Origin: an uncultured Lachnospiraceae bacterium
Lineage (GTDB): Bacteria > Bacillota > Clostridia > Lachnospirales > Lachnospiraceae
Assembly (NCBI GenBank): GCA_900315495.1
Contig: OMZJ01000008.1
Coordinates: 62,001 to 126,000, forward strand
Direction of reading: 5' to 3'
Length of the DNA stretch: 64,000 nt
Of the stretch, positions 1-50,847 are shown in pieces. The position numbers and the translations under genes were made by a program. The notes beneath the pieces were generated by a model. That model saw nothing but the letters and a program-made list of their open reading frames with translations. It searched no databases and was not told where the DNA came from. Each line of letters opens with the position of its first letter. Position 1 is the stretch's first letter.

Positions 1-1529
1 AGACCGAAGCCTATGTGGAGCTGATCTTTCATGTCGAGGGACAGCACAGCCTGGAGGGGCTTTCTGCCCTCGGGCTGGAGACCGAGGACGGCCAGCTGAT
101 TGTCTCGCGGAAATTCACGGGCGGCCGGAGCATCTGCCGGATCAACGGCGAAGCGGTCCCCCTGGCGAAGGTGCGGGAGGCGGCGCCGTTTCTTCTGGAT
201 GTCTACGGGCAGCGGGAGCATCAGACCCTGCTTCGCCCCGCGAGCCAGCTTGCCCTGGTGGATCGGTACGGCCGGGCCGAGACAGAGCCGCTGCGAAAGA
301 AACTGGCGGCCCAGGTGGTGTCCTACCGGAAAGCGGACGGGGAATACCGCCGGTGCCAGATGGACGAGGCGGTGCGGCTTCGGAACATCGATATCCTGAA
401 TTTTGAGATCCAGGAACTCACCGACGCGGGAATCACCCCCGGTGAGGAGGAAAAGCTCTCCGCCGCGTGGAAGAAACTGAGCGGCCGGCAGAAGGCCGTG
501 CAGGGAATCCGGCAGATCATCGACTGCATCTCCGGGGAGGGCGGTGCCTTGGATTCCGTCGGCAGGGCGGCCGGCGCCGCGGGAGAGATCGCAGATTACG
601 GGCCGGAGTGCCGGAACCTGTACAGCCAGCTGATGGACGTCCAGTCGATTCTGTCGGACTGCGACCGGGATGCCGGAGCACTGATCGACTCTGATGAGGA
701 CGATGCGGAGCAGATGGAGCGGATCTCGGAGCGCCTGGACCAGATCCGGCACCTGATGCAGAAATACGGGTGCGGTGAGAAGGAACTGCTGGATCTTCTG
801 GCGCGGAAGACCGGCGAGCTGGAAACCCTCACCAACATGGAAAAACTGCGGGACCAGTGGAAGAAGAAGGCAGAGAGAGCGCTGCGGGAGGCGGAGCAGA
901 CCGCGGCGCTTTTGAGCGCGGCCAGGGAAAAAGCGGCAGCCGCCCTGGGGGAGGAAATTGAACGGGCGGTGCAGGAACTCAATTTTTCGCAGGTGCATTT
1001 TGCCATCCGCATGGATTCCTCCGGTGCCCTGAAGGAGAACGGCTGTGACACGGCGGAGTTTCTGGTTTCCATGAACACGGGGGAGAGTCTTCGGCCGCTG
1101 GCGGATGTGGCTTCCGGCGGAGAGCTCTCGCGCATCATGCTGGCGGTCAAGTCCGTGCTGGCCGGAAAGGAGGAGACGGAGACCCTGATCTTTGATGAGA
1201 TTGACGCCGGCATCAGCGGCAGAACCGCCCAGAGAGTCGGAAAGAAGCTCAAAAAAATCGCCGGCTCATCCCAGGTGATCTGCATCAGCCACCTTCCGCA
1301 GATCGTCGCGATGGCGGACACGCATTTTTACATTGAAAAGAGAACGGAAGACGGACTCACGGCAACCCACATCCGGCGTCTGAACCGGGAGGAGAGCATC
1401 CGCGAGCTGGCCCGTCTTCTGGGCGGAACCGAGATCACGGAGCGCGTTCTGGACAACGCGCGGGAGATGAAGGAACTGGCGGAGAAATCCGGAGAAGACA
1501 AGAAAGACCAGCCGGCCGGAAAACCCTGA
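1..1529 (+). CDS. recN: DNA repair protein RecN (5' end outside window)
   Basis: RecN is an SMC-like ATPase that acts early in double-strand break repair. The reading frame is open from position 3, so the start codon and roughly the first 50-60 residues, including Walker A, lie upstream of the window. About 508 residues are visible. The segment near residues 60-80 of the visible part (DVYGQREHQTLL) is typical of RecN. It is followed by a helical coiled-coil centre, an ABC signature (ASGGELSRIMLA, about nt 1096-1131) and Walker B with D-loop (LIFDEIDAGISG, about nt 1187-1222). The C-terminus ends in a charged tail. In many Clostridia recN precedes spoIVB-spo0A; here a Spo0A-like gene follows 191 nt later. 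The identification is firm and only the 5' boundary is unknown. Confidence 0.95.
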   Translation, partial: TEAYVELIFHVEGQHSLEGLSALGLETEDGQLIVSRKFTGGRSICRINGEAVPLAKVREAAPFLLDVYGQREHQTLLRPASQLALVDRYGRAETEPLRKKLAAQVVSYRKADGEYRRCQMDEAVRLRNIDILNFEIQELTDAGITPGEEEKLSAAWKKLSGRQKAVQGIRQIIDCISGEGGALDSVGRAAGAAGEIADYGPECRNLYSQLMDVQSILSDCDRDAGALIDSDEDDAEQMERISERLDQIRHLMQKYGCGEKELLDLLARKTGELETLTNMEKLRDQWKKKAERALREAEQTAALLSAAREKAAAALGEEIERAVQELNFSQVHFAIRMDSSGALKENGCDTAEFLVSMNTGESLRPLADVASGGELSRIMLAVKSVLAGKEETETLIFDEIDAGISGRTAQRVGKKLKKIAGSSQVICISHLPQIVAMADTHFYIEKRTEDGLTATHIRRLNREESIRELARLLGGTEITERVLDNAREMKELAEKSGEDKKDQPAGKP

Positions 1530-1720
1530 GCGGGGCCGGCCGTGGAAGATACGGCAGAAGACAGAGCACCGCGGAGAAACCGCGGAAGAACGGATGCGGG
1601 AGAGCAGTGCGGCGGAATGCCGCGGTTCTCCGAAAGCCGGAGCGACAGGCACCGGGAACATACAGCCGAGGAATTCCGGGAAGTACCGGAAATATCTGAA
1701 GGAGAGAACAATGAAAAAAT
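1530..1720. other. purine-rich spacer where spoIVB would be expected
   Basis: This 191-nt spacer separates recN from the Spo0A-like gene. Short open frames cross it, but none has a family-like sequence, so I call no gene. It contains imperfect GC palindromes (around 1568-1585 and 1608-1625) and a good ribosome binding site AAGGAG at 1699-1704. I see no clear promoter or terminator, so the downstream gene may be read from recN. Confidence 0.5.
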
Positions 1721-2536
1721 ATGGTCCTGGTAAAGATTGCGTCCTCCTGTTTCCCGGGGACAGGCGAGAGAGTAAGAGAGACAGCGGAGAGAGAACACTG
1801 TGTGTATGTCGGCAATGTGTCAAACCTGGCGGATGCCTGCGTGCTGGCACTGATGTCCCGCCCGGACATTTTTCTGATCGATGAGACCCTCACGTTCAGC
1901 GAATCGGCAATCTTGATTCAGTCGGTGCGCTCGATTTCTGGCGGGAAGGCGCCGCGTTTTATCTATCTTCCGATGTACCGGAAAAAAGCCGGGAAAACGG
2001 CAGCGGAACCCGCAAAAATGACGGAATCAGAGCTTGTGCGTGAATCTTTATTGTTCTATAATTACAATGAAAGACGGGGTGAACTGCCCGAAGACAGCCG
2101 CGGAAATCCCGTGGTGCGGTCTGTCTGCAGCAGCCTGCTGCGCAGCCTGAATCCTTCGGCTGACCCGGAGAGCGCAGAGATCCTGGTGCGCCGGGCGCAG
2201 AGGGAGTATCTGGAAGAGCTCCTGGGGGTTCTTGGCATTCCATACGGCTCCGGCGGCTGGAACTTTCTCTGCGATGCGGTGCTTCGGTGTGCCGGACAGC
2301 GTGAGCTGCTCTGTTCGATCAACAAGATTCTGTATTCCCAGATTGCGGAGGAGTACGGGACGAGCCGGTCCGCGGTGGAGAAAGGCATTCGGATTGCTGC
2401 CGGCCAGGCCTGTGGGACAGACCGGCCGGAGAACCGCCGGCTGTTTGAAGAGATGACGGGCCGTGTCATGCAGGGCAGGCTTTCCAGCCGGAAACTGATC
2501 ATCCTGCTGACGCAGTGTGTCGCAGATCAATTTTAA
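1721..2536 (+). CDS. Spo0A-like response regulator with degenerate receiver
   Basis: A 271-residue protein. The C-terminal part (about 158-271) aligns by eye with the Spo0A DNA-binding domain: a GIP-type turn at 172-174, the N-K-I-L-Y-S-Q-I-A core at 201-209, and the helix-turn-helix S-R-S-A-V-E-K-G-I-R at 215-224. The N-terminal 90 residues keep a receiver-like core (PDIFLIDETL) with Asp54 at the phospho-acceptor position. The usual N-terminal acidic pair is replaced (K-I-A-S-S) and no switch Thr or clear Lys is seen, so classical phosphorylation is doubtful. Its place after recN is that of spo0A in spore-formers, but spoIVB is absent in between. The start is uncertain: AAGGAG (1699-1704) is 16 nt from ATG 1721 but 6 nt from an out-of-frame ATG at 1711. 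Orthologue of Spo0A is my inference; a paralogue is possible. Confidence 0.75.
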   Translation: MVLVKIASSCFPGTGERVRETAEREHCVYVGNVSNLADACVLALMSRPDIFLIDETLTFSESAILIQSVRSISGGKAPRFIYLPMYRKKAGKTAAEPAKMTESELVRESLLFYNYNERRGELPEDSRGNPVVRSVCSSLLRSLNPSADPESAEILVRRAQREYLEELLGVLGIPYGSGGWNFLCDAVLRCAGQRELLCSINKILYSQIAEEYGTSRSAVEKGIRIAAGQACGTDRPENRRLFEEMTGRVMQGRLSSRKLIILLTQCVADQF

Positions 2537-2580: not shown

Positions 2581-4386
2581 ATGAAGAAAATACTCTTTGC
2601 GGCTTCGGAATGTGTGCCGTTTATCAAGACAGGTGGTCTGGCGGATGTCGTCGGTTCCCTGCCGAAATATTTCAACAAGTCGGAATATGACGTCCGCGTT
2701 ATCATGCCGAAGTACCTCTGCATCAAAGAGTCGCTGCGCGCGCAGATGAAGTATGTCACGCATTTCTACACGGATTTCTGCTGGCGCAACCAGTACGTCG
2801 GCATCCTCGAGATGGAGTATCAGGGCGTTCATTTCTATTTTGTGGACAGCGAGTTCTATTTCGGCGGACCGTGGCCGTACGGAAACATGTACGAGGACAT
2901 CGAGAAGTTCTGCTTCTTCGATAAGATGGTGCTCTCCATCCTTCCGCAGATCCACTTCAAGCCGGATATCATCCACTGCCATGACTGGCAGACGGGCCTG
3001 ATCCCGGTATATCTGAACGATAGCTTCCAGGCGGATCCCTTCTTCTGGGGAATCAAGACCATCTTTACGATCCACAACCTGAAGTTCCAGGGCGTCTGGA
3101 ACGTGGACACCATGAAGAACATGTCCGGCCTGTCGGATTATTATTTCACCTCCGACAAGCTGGAGGCTTACGGAAACGGCAACATGCTCAAGGGCGGCCT
3201 GGTCTACGCCGACCGGATCACGACGGTCAGTCGCAGCTATGCGGAGGAGATTAAAATGCCGTTTTACGGCGAGGGCCTGGACGGGCTTTTGCGCGCCAAA
3301 TCCTCCGATCTCTCCGGCATCCTGAACGGCATCGACTACGAGATCTACAATCCGGCGACGGACAAGGATATCGCGGCAAATTATGACGTGGATGGTGTAC
3401 AGGAGGGCAAGGCAAAAAACAAGGCGGCGCTGCAGCAGGAGCTTGGTCTGGAGCAGAAGCCGGACGTCTTCATGATCGGCATTGTCTCCCGCCTGACGGA
3501 CCAGAAGGGCTTTGACCTGATCGAGTGCGTGCTCGACCAGATCGCGTCGGACGACGTGCAGCTGGTGGTCCTGGGAACCGGCGAGTGGCGCTACCAGAAC
3601 ATGTTCCGCACCATCGCGGACCGGTATCCGGGCCGTGTATCGGCCAATATCTTCTATTCCGAGCCGCTTTCCCACCGCATTTACGCGGCCTGCGATGCAT
3701 TCCTGATGCCGTCGCTGTTTGAGCCCTGCGGCCTGAGCCAGCTGATGGCGCTGCGCTACGGCACTCTGCCCATCGTGCGCGAAACCGGCGGCCTGCGCGA
3801 CACGGTGAAGCCCTACAACGAGGTGGACGGAACCGGTACCGGCTTCTCCTTTGCCAACTATAACGCCCATGAGATGCTGGACATCATCCGCTACGCAAAG
3901 CGCGTCTACCGGGATTCCCGGTTTGCGTGGAACGCCATGGTGGTCCGCGCCATGCAGCAGGACTTCTCCTGGGAGGCTTCCGCCCGCCAGTACGAGACGC
4001 TCTACGACGAAGTGATTGCGGAGGAGCAGATCCGCGAGGAGCTGGCCCGCGAGATGCAGGAGCAGGAGAAGCTGAAGAAAGAGCAGGAGGAGAACGAGAA
4101 GCGCATCAAAAGCCTGAAGGACCGGGAGGAGCGCATCAAGAAGCGCAGGGAGCTTGGCCTCGGTGCCGCCTTTGCAAAGAAAGCGGAGGAATCCGCGGAA
4201 ACGGCAGAGGAGAGCGCTGACGCGGATGCTTCCGAAGTCCCCGCGGAGGATGGCTCCGGGGCAGATTCGGTGGATACCGCTTCTTCCGCCGAAGGCTTTG
4301 CTGCAGGTGAGCAGCCTGCCGGAGACTCCGGTAATCTGCCTGCGGAGAAATCCGCCGGAGAGGAGATCGGTTCGACAGAGAAATAA
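2581..4386 (+). CDS. glgA: Glycogen synthase GlgA with C-terminal coiled-coil/acidic extension
   Basis: Transfers glucose from ADP-glucose to the growing alpha-1,4-glucan in glycogen synthesis. ATG 2581 is chosen because it follows GGAGGAGGG (2569-2577) and gives the family N-terminus MKKILFAASE. Residues 16-20 (KTGGL) are the ADP-glucose site of the GT5 domain. The GT1-type half carries EPCGLSQLMALRYGTLPIVR and ETGGLRDTV. The catalytic part ends near residue 480, the usual total length of about 475-480. A further 120 residues follow: a Glu/Lys/Arg-rich predicted coiled coil (about 481-540), then an Ala/Glu/Ser-rich acidic tail. No other glycogen genes are in the window. The gene lies 44 nt after the Spo0A-like gene and is probably co-transcribed. 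Confidence 0.95.
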   Translation: MKKILFAASECVPFIKTGGLADVVGSLPKYFNKSEYDVRVIMPKYLCIKESLRAQMKYVTHFYTDFCWRNQYVGILEMEYQGVHFYFVDSEFYFGGPWPYGNMYEDIEKFCFFDKMVLSILPQIHFKPDIIHCHDWQTGLIPVYLNDSFQADPFFWGIKTIFTIHNLKFQGVWNVDTMKNMSGLSDYYFTSDKLEAYGNGNMLKGGLVYADRITTVSRSYAEEIKMPFYGEGLDGLLRAKSSDLSGILNGIDYEIYNPATDKDIAANYDVDGVQEGKAKNKAALQQELGLEQKPDVFMIGIVSRLTDQKGFDLIECVLDQIASDDVQLVVLGTGEWRYQNMFRTIADRYPGRVSANIFYSEPLSHRIYAACDAFLMPSLFEPCGLSQLMALRYGTLPIVRETGGLRDTVKPYNEVDGTGTGFSFANYNAHEMLDIIRYAKRVYRDSRFAWNAMVVRAMQQDFSWEASARQYETLYDEVIAEEQIREELAREMQEQEKLKKEQEENEKRIKSLKDREERIKKRRELGLGAAFAKKAEESAETAEESADADASEVPAEDGSGADSVDTASSAEGFAAGEQPAGDSGNLPAEKSAGEEIGSTEK

Positions 4387-48423: not shown

Positions 48424-50847
48424 ATGAATACTTCATTAAACTGGATCAAAGATCTGGTGCCGGGGCTGGACTGCACGGCACAGGAATATTTTGACGCGAT
48501 GACGCTCTCCGGAACCAAGGGAGAAACCTATACCGAGTATGACAAAAACCTGAAGGACATTGTGGTCGGTCAGATCCTCTCGGTGGAGAAGCATCCGCAC
48601 GCGGATAAGCTGGTCATCTGCCAGGTGGATGTGGGGAAGGATCAGCCGGTGCAGATTGTCACCGGCGCGCCGAACACCCGCGCGGGCATGAAGGTGCCTG
48701 TGGTCCTGCCGGGGGGGAAAGTTGCCGGCGGCCATGACGGCGGGCCGAAGCCGGAGGACGGTATCACGATCGAGGCCGGTAACCTGCGCGGCGTGGAATC
48801 CTTCGGCATGATGTGCTCCATCGAGGAGCTCGGCTCCTCCCGGGAATTCTATCCGGACGCCCCGGAAAACGGGCTCTACGTCTTCCCGGAGGATACGCCG
48901 GTGGGAGCGGACGCGATCGATGTGCTCGGCCTGCATGACGCCTCCATCGAGTATGAGATCACCAGCAACCGCGTGGACTGCTACAGCGTGCTGGGCATCG
49001 CCAGAGAGGCTGCGGCAACCTTCCGGAAGCCTTTTGTGCCGCCGGTGGTGACGGCGGTCGGAAACAATGAGGATATCCACGATTATCTGACCGTGGAGGT
49101 CCGGGATCCGAAGCTCTGCCCGCGGTACACGGCGAGAATGGTGAAGAACATTCACCTGGCACCGTCCCCGGAGTGGATGCGGCGCCGCCTGATGGGAAGC
49201 GGAATCCGCCCGATCAACAACCTCGTCGACATCACGAATTACGTGATGGAGGAATACGGGCAGCCGATGCACGCCTTTAACTATGACAAGATTGCGGGAC
49301 ACAAGATCATTGTCCGGCGGGCGGAAGACGGAGATACCTTTGAGACCCTGGACGGGCAGGAGAGAAAGCTGGACCGGGACATCCTGATGATCTGCGACGG
49401 GGAGAAGGAAATCGGCATCGCCGGGATCATGGGCGGTGAGAATTCCAAGATCACAGACGACGTCACGACCATGGTCTTCGAGGCGGCCTGCTTCGACGGT
49501 ACGAACATCCGCCTTTCCAGCAAGCGCCTGGGCCTGCAGACCGACGCTTCGGGAAAGTTTGACAAGGGACTGGATCCCAACAACGCGTCGGCGGCCATCG
49601 ACCGCGCCTGCCAGCTGATCGAGGAGCTGGGCGCCGGGGAAGTGGTCGGGGGGATGATTGATGTCTGCTTCGAGCACCGGGAGGAGAAGAGAATCCCGTT
49701 TGACCCGGAATACAACAACAGGCTTCTCGGCATCGACATTTCCGCAAAGCAGCAGCTTTCCTACTTCAAGCCGCTGGAAATCCGCCTGGATGAGAAGACG
49801 AACGAACTGGTCTGCCCGACCTTCCGGCAGGATCTGCTGCGCAAGTGCGACATCGCGGAGGAAGTGGCCCGCTTCTACGGCTATGACAAGATTCCGACCA
49901 CGCTGCCCAGCGGCGAGGCGACGGCCGGCGGCCTTACCTGGAAGCTGCGGATCGAGAACATCGCGCGGGAGGTGGCGGAGTTCAACGGCTTCTCCCAGAC
50001 CATGACCTACTCCTTCGAGAGCCCGAAGGTCTTTGACCGGCTGCGCCTGGATGCGGAAGATCCGCTGCGTAAAGCGATCGCGCTCTCCAATCCCCTCGGG
50101 GAAGACTACAGTATCATGCGCACCCTGCCGGTGAACGGCATGCTGACCTCCCTTGCGACGAACTACAAGCGGCGCAACAAGGATGTACGGCTGTATGAAA
50201 TTGCCACAATCTATCTGCCAAAGTCCCTGCCCCTGACCGAATACCCGGATGAGCGGACGGAGCTGACCTTCGGCATGTACGGGGACGGCGATTTCTTCGA
50301 CATGAAGGGCGTCGTTGAGGACCTGTTTGAGCGGCTCGGCATGAAGGAAGCGCCGAAGTACGACCCCGCGTCCGGGAAAAACTTCCTGCATCCGGGGCGG
50401 CAGGCAAAGATCCTCTATCACGGCGAGTGCGTCGGCTTCCTCGGCGAGGTGCATCCGGATGTGGCGGATACCTACGGCATCGGCGAGCGCGCGGTGATCG
50501 CGGTGCTTGACATGCCGAAGATTGATGAATACGCGAATTTCGACTATCTGTACAGAGGCCTTGCAAAATATCCGACGGTGACCCGGGACATCAGCCTTGT
50601 GGTGCCGCTTCCCATTCTGGCGGGCCAGATCGAGGATGCGATCCGCGCAAACGGCGGGCCGTATCTGGAGAGCGTGGATCTGTTTGACGTTTACGCGGGC
50701 GGACAGGTTCTGCAGGGAACCAAGTCGATGGCTTATACGATCGTATTCCGGGCACCGGATCACACCCTCCGGGATACCGAGGTGCAGGAAGCCATGGACC
50801 GGATCCTGGCCGCGCTGGAGAAAATGGGAATCACGCTCCGCGCCTGA
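48424..50847 (+). CDS. pheT: Phenylalanyl-tRNA synthetase beta subunit
   Basis: 807 residues, the full length. The N-terminal tRNA-binding (EMAP-like) domain (VVGQILSVEKHPHADKLVICQVDVG), B3/B4 editing region, B5 and the C-terminal anticodon-binding fold (YRGLAKYPTVTRDISLVVP) are all present. It follows pheS by 16 nt. Confidence 0.97.
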   Translation: MNTSLNWIKDLVPGLDCTAQEYFDAMTLSGTKGETYTEYDKNLKDIVVGQILSVEKHPHADKLVICQVDVGKDQPVQIVTGAPNTRAGMKVPVVLPGGKVAGGHDGGPKPEDGITIEAGNLRGVESFGMMCSIEELGSSREFYPDAPENGLYVFPEDTPVGADAIDVLGLHDASIEYEITSNRVDCYSVLGIAREAAATFRKPFVPPVVTAVGNNEDIHDYLTVEVRDPKLCPRYTARMVKNIHLAPSPEWMRRRLMGSGIRPINNLVDITNYVMEEYGQPMHAFNYDKIAGHKIIVRRAEDGDTFETLDGQERKLDRDILMICDGEKEIGIAGIMGGENSKITDDVTTMVFEAACFDGTNIRLSSKRLGLQTDASGKFDKGLDPNNASAAIDRACQLIEELGAGEVVGGMIDVCFEHREEKRIPFDPEYNNRLLGIDISAKQQLSYFKPLEIRLDEKTNELVCPTFRQDLLRKCDIAEEVARFYGYDKIPTTLPSGEATAGGLTWKLRIENIAREVAEFNGFSQTMTYSFESPKVFDRLRLDAEDPLRKAIALSNPLGEDYSIMRTLPVNGMLTSLATNYKRRNKDVRLYEIATIYLPKSLPLTEYPDERTELTFGMYGDGDFFDMKGVVEDLFERLGMKEAPKYDPASGKNFLHPGRQAKILYHGECVGFLGEVHPDVADTYGIGERAVIAVLDMPKIDEYANFDYLYRGLAKYPTVTRDISLVVPLPILAGQIEDAIRANGGPYLESVDLFDVYAGGQVLQGTKSMAYTIVFRAPDHTLRDTEVQEAMDRILAALEKMGITLRA

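Follow-up and report, generated by a model that had tools for sequence, protein, structure and literature searches.

The open reading frame at 1721-2536 of the window (the whole 64,000-nucleotide stretch analysed, from an uncultured Lachnospiraceae bacterium) is, to judge from its sequence and position, the spo0A orthologue of this genome, decayed in place and not a paralogue. The account favoured here, with moderate confidence, is that spo0A decayed at its own locus after sporulation was lost and that its product survives as a phosphorylation-independent DNA-binding regulator with a drifted recognition helix. Spo0A is the phospho-activated master regulator of sporulation, and its gene usually follows recN and spoIVB. 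To our knowledge, Spo0A is taken to be present in all spore formers and to be active only with a phosphorylated receiver. The features of the locus are collected in Table 1.

Table 1. Features at and around the decayed spo0A gene (positions in the window).
Feature	Position	Strand	Remarks
recN, 5' end upstream of the window	15..1529	+	TIGR00634, 370 bits; adjoins spo0A/spoIVB upstream in relatives
191 bp occupying the spoIVB slot of spore-forming relatives	1530..1720	+	no spoIVB in genome
Shine-Dalgarno GGAGAG, then ATG 1711	1701..1713	+	opens a frame of 57 aa, shifted against the ORF
Decayed Spo0A orthologue, 271 aa, without internal stop (from sequence and position)	1721..2536	+	
Eroded receiver region	1721..2090	+	
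Ser8-Ser9 replacing the acidic pair Asp-Asp	1742..1747	+	ungapped alignment
Asp54, phospho-acceptor position, retained	1880..1882	+	alignment
Spo0A_C DNA-binding domain, residues 166-263	2216..2509	+	Pfam PF08769; 1fc3/1lq1 fold match; hydrophobic core kept
Recognition helix SAVEKGIRIAAGQAC (canonical SRVERAIRHAIEVAW)	2369..2413	+	A, K and I in place of R, R and H
glgA, glycogen synthase, ATG 2581 after GGAGGAGG	2581..4386	+	NF001898, 668 bits; after spo0A in relatives

DNA-binding domain, receiver and recognition helix

A profile search placed residues 166-263 inside the Pfam Spo0A_C family with 48.9 bits (E 7e-13; 51 bits in the search of the genome), above the cut-off of 25. The same residues match the solved Spo0A chains 1fc3 and 1lq1 in sequence, and the AlphaFold model of this part agrees with those structures at TM 0.80-0.88. 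This was the sole Spo0A_C match in the 2.93 Mb genome: the profile search found no second such protein elsewhere, intact or not, and so no intact spo0A beside which the present copy would be only a paralogue. At 42.8 bits the protein falls far short of the 200-bit cut-off of the Spo0A equivalog TIGR02875, on which the protein of genus mate G001 scores 314 bits. With Spo0A of spore-forming Clostridia (TIGR02875; G001, L044) it shares the locus apart from the missing spoIVB, the domain order, the Spo0A_C fold and Asp54, the DNA-binding domains being 27% identical and the receivers about 21%. Unlike these proteins it has lost the acidic pair, the switch Thr/Ser and the Lys, its recognition helix is altered, and the sporulation genes that Spo0A would control are absent from its genome.

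The receiver itself gave no Pfam match to PF00072 at E<=1 in this reading frame. From the acidic pair to Asp54 it could be aligned to that of the intact genus mate over 49/49 residues without gaps, 11/49 of them identical. With the genus mate as reference, IADD has become IASS, both residues of the acidic pair now being serine, and VLLD has become FLID, which keeps the Asp54 position. The switch Thr/Ser is lost by alignment (FIILS to FIYLP), and the MPGxDG motif and the KPF lysine are both replaced. In the AlphaFold model residues 1-83 still form a beta-alpha-beta repeat with pLDDT of about 70-86, and residues 86-120 fall below 50. The initial annotation, made from the sequence without database searches, had described a Spo0A-type DNA-binding domain joined to a receiver that keeps Asp54 and is missing the acidic pair and the switch residues, and had proposed modelling the receiver; the profile, the solved chains, the predicted fold and the alignment bear this description out. 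The aspartate-less or atypical receivers reported earlier (PMC4395418) are likewise response-regulator receivers without catalytic residues, but those receivers lack the Asp, whereas the window receiver keeps it and lacks the others.

In the recognition helix, all intact Spo0A proteins compared have the SRVERAIRH motif unchanged at 8 of its 9 positions, the I reaching 97% (I/L). The window helix reads SAVEKGIRI, in which the strictly conserved R, R and H are replaced and the E and the following R are kept. Of five locus orthologues from SpoIVA-less genomes (G000, the window genome, and G002, G256, G300 and G369), 5/5 retain the Glu and the later Arg, and 5/5 have lost the first helix Arg. By these residues the protein may still bind DNA, probably with a changed specificity. 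The window shows no enrichment of 0A boxes, with 4 present against 8.2 expected.

Loss of sporulation in the window genome

Loss of sporulation in the window lineage is well supported by its gene content, since spoIVB, spoIVA and sigF/G are missing, no sigE/K-like sigma factor was found in the genome, and a genus mate has these genes. In genome searches SpoIVB and SpoIVA were absent from the window genome (98% complete) and from genus mate G002, where single absences weigh less because that genome is only 84% complete; both were present in G001. In a search of the window genome for the sigma-70 family, the matches were two RpoD-like proteins, an ECF-like one and nine weak fragments. The SigB/F/G model, which finds true SigF/G in G001, matched only the two RpoD-like proteins and gave one weak match. 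The initial annotation had noted that spoIVB was missing and had suggested that spore formation was lost, and both points stand, spoIVB being absent from the locus and from the genome. The two RpoD-like sigma factors of the window genome lie at L032 357-1706 (449 aa) and L033 943-2214 (423 aa), and two long RpoD-like matches each were also present in genus mates G001 and G002.

Two separate losses of sporulation, in the window genome and in G002, are favoured but not decisively so by the tree topology G000,(G001,G002), with AU p 0.75 against 0.36 and 0.11 for the alternatives. No deletion scar shared by the window genome and G002 was visible at the locus. PheT was rejected as a tree marker, the G001 copy being too distant. 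That copy (L185, G001:C47) is 32% identical to the window PheT (48424-50847), compared with 75% for G002 PheT, and may represent a foreign-gene replacement, a second copy or assembly contamination.

Selection or decay

No close relative suited to dN/dS was found among 397 family genomes. Neutral drift was simulated with the ancestor represented by a living genus mate, which is a simplification. When three intact spo0A genes drifted to 40-60% amino-acid identity, about 4-7 stops were expected and 0-6 of 300 runs were still open; the window reading frame has zero stops, though it is more diverged. The core of the DNA-binding domain is hydrophobic at 32 of 39 positions, against about 23 of 39 under drift with only stops forbidden, and its hydrophobic/polar contrast of 0.65 (neutral, 0.33 +- 0.09) was reached in 0/500 runs. 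The N-terminal receiver half had a contrast indistinguishable from drift (177/500 runs). A core contrast beyond drift indicates that the fold of the DNA-binding domain has been under selection, of which the N-terminal receiver half shows no sign.

An alternative that we take seriously while thinking it somewhat unlikely is that the gene outlived sporulation, is now functionless and has stayed open by chance in a GC-rich genome. Its codon usage is consistent with such a dying relic: CAI is 0.56 against 0.67-0.78, and GC3 0.67 against 0.72-0.81, in all six neighbours tested, with both codon bias and GC3 weakest in the receiver half. The start of the gene points the same way, since the start with the best Shine-Dalgarno, ATG 1711, is separated by an A6 run from the open reading frame and does not share its frame, the first in-frame ATG being 1721; this mismatch could reflect an assembly error, a recent frameshift or translation from ATG 1721. 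The altered recognition helix and the deletion of the gene in most members of the family that once formed spores, with an empty recN-glgA junction in L099-L101, also fit a relic. Against it stand the 271 codons without a stop, where drift would give several, a hydrophobic core kept beyond drift in the DNA-binding domain and not in the receiver, a codon bias that still exceeds the synonymous null of 0.36 +- 0.02, and similar retention in other lineages.

The locus and its relation to glgA

The reading frame is flanked directly by recN upstream and glgA downstream. In spore-forming relatives (L096, L098, L102, L103, L167, L168) the order is recN-spoIVB-spo0A-glgA, and genus mate G001 has an intact spo0A followed by glgA. 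G002 carries, between recN and glgA, a copy with a shortened receiver and a good DNA-binding domain, and in L099-L101 nothing lies between these two genes. The same recN-glgA slot is therefore seen at several stages, of which the window represents one stage in the erosion of one locus. In G001 (L177, L044) spoIVB and spo0A are about 7 kb apart, with spoIVB on the upstream side and other genes filling the interval.

The initial annotation had also suggested that the Spo0A homologue may control the adjacent glycogen synthase gene. The product of 1721-2536 is improbable as a dedicated regulator of glgA: the two genes are neighbours on the same strand, 44 bp apart, with no terminator-like site listed between them, but spore formers have this arrangement ancestrally, so that it says little on function. 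The recN-glgA pair survives where any spo0A is gone, the downstream neighbour of the retained regulator in G256 is rqcH and not glgA, and no 0A box was found upstream of either gene, which leaves the suggestion unsupported. That a stand-alone Spo0A_C protein moved beside recN as a paralogue or later arrival is very improbable and was rejected on synteny with the spo0A locus of relatives, since, common as Spo0A_C-only paralogues are in the family, this copy lies precisely between recN and glgA, gap-free alignment of its receiver to intact Spo0A extends from the acidic pair through Asp54, and a half-eroded copy occupies the same slot in G002. The short Spo0A_C-only paralogues of the family are about 115-240 aa long (L045, L047, L220, L232, L233, L234), and one persists in the asporogenous G002.

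Decayed copies in other former spore formers

The family was surveyed in 396 genomes at least 90% complete. No Spo0A_C was found in 125 of them, and 13 had weaker matches only; three of these 13 (G164, G172, G478) were rejected as decayed-only genomes, their intact Spo0A copies being cut by contig ends. The majority of the family's former spore formers have no spo0A left. Four genomes (G002, G369, G300 and G256) resemble the window genome in their decayed Spo0A. G369 (L217 1480-2307) has a 276-aa copy between recN and glgA, in which the phospho-Asp has become Glu and the receiver is partly recognisable. Downstream of recN, G300 has nothing of Spo0A but a DNA-binding domain of 116 aa, and G256 has a 180-aa copy without a receiver. 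SpoIVA was not found in G369, G300 or G256 (the one match in G369, at 20 bits, fell below the cut-off). The core was retained beyond drift in these lineages as well (2 of 300 runs for G256, 5 for G300, 8 for G369 and 18 for G002).

A proposed regulator independent of phosphorylation

The proposed course of events is that a lineage loses sporulation and that spo0A would then decay at its native locus. A receiver without the Mg-binding acidic pair and the switch residues would no longer support phosphorylation or phosphorylation-driven dimerisation. The DNA-binding domain has kept its fold; the protein would survive as a phosphorylation-independent regulator, and the drifted recognition helix would leave it with a reduced or altered set of targets outside sporulation. 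The isolated Spo0A DNA-binding domain has been reported to bind its targets without phosphorylation (PMC3485338). A phosphorylation-independent task had been put forward in the initial annotation; with the domain fold kept and the receiver eroded it is the best inference, a functionless remnant being the less probable alternative.

Such a protein would be a natural separation of the two halves of Spo0A, and the separated halves would offer a route to roles of Spo0A besides sporulation. The presence or absence of spo0A, if used as a marker of sporulation, would misread genomes of this kind. In three reports, spo0A likewise outlasts other sporulation genes in non-spore-formers, with 30 genomes in one (Galperin et al. 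2012, PMC3533761), 15/68 in another (Davidson et al. 2018, PMC6136694) and 15/1358 gut genomes with spo0A and a low sporulation score in the third (Browne et al. 2021, PMC8340488). The passages found in them give no description of receiver loss. For the non-spore-former Macrococcus caseolyticus a typical Spo0A is described, whereas the Spo0A of the window has an eroded receiver. The literature searched, outside which subscription papers lay, held no description of receiver loss from spo0A at its native locus, so that novelty is provisional.

Receiver-less Spo0A beside sporulation genes

Candidates for loss of the receiver in genomes with sporulation genes were picked from the best Spo0A_C matches as strong Spo0A_C in an ORF of less than 240 aa, a rule that depends also on start choice, and comprised 27 genomes. 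SpoIVA was present in 26 of the 27. At the ten loci read (L197-L205, L207) the Spo0A_C protein lies directly before glgA, and its receiver is a stub of ~35 aa, with the sequence MEQLN..TKDN..V..IL.DL...DKEFQIMITVPS, followed by a linker and the domain. Four of these loci were scanned and gave Spo0A_C scores of 159-160 bits, with no receiver found. spoIVB lies upstream in L201 and L205, the two loci whose contig stretch shows it, and nine of the candidates formed one group in a glgA tree (support 95/94). These proteins and that of the window are alike in that Spo0A_C is encoded upstream of glgA and lacks a working receiver; they differ in that the former keep a canonical DNA-binding domain and a short stub, whereas the DNA-binding domain of the window protein has diverged.

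A clade with a normal Spo0A DNA-binding domain, no receiver and sporulation genes counts in favour of the phosphorylation-independent reading of the window protein. Going by gene content, sporulation without receiver phosphorylation is possible in this clade, which raises the question of by what route sporulation could begin if no phospho-signal reaches Spo0A. We regard as evenly balanced the broader proposition that the family has repeatedly lost the receiver while retaining the DNA-binding domain, apparently once in the clade with sporulation genes (27 candidates, of which ten were read) and also in four or more genera of former spore formers, and that this yields stand-alone phosphorylation-independent regulators that might even start sporulation. 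Further Spo0A_C copies in G005, G024 and G033 are likewise receiver-less. A stub receiver with a canonical Spo0A DNA-binding domain was also observed upstream of glgA in L010, L012 and L024.
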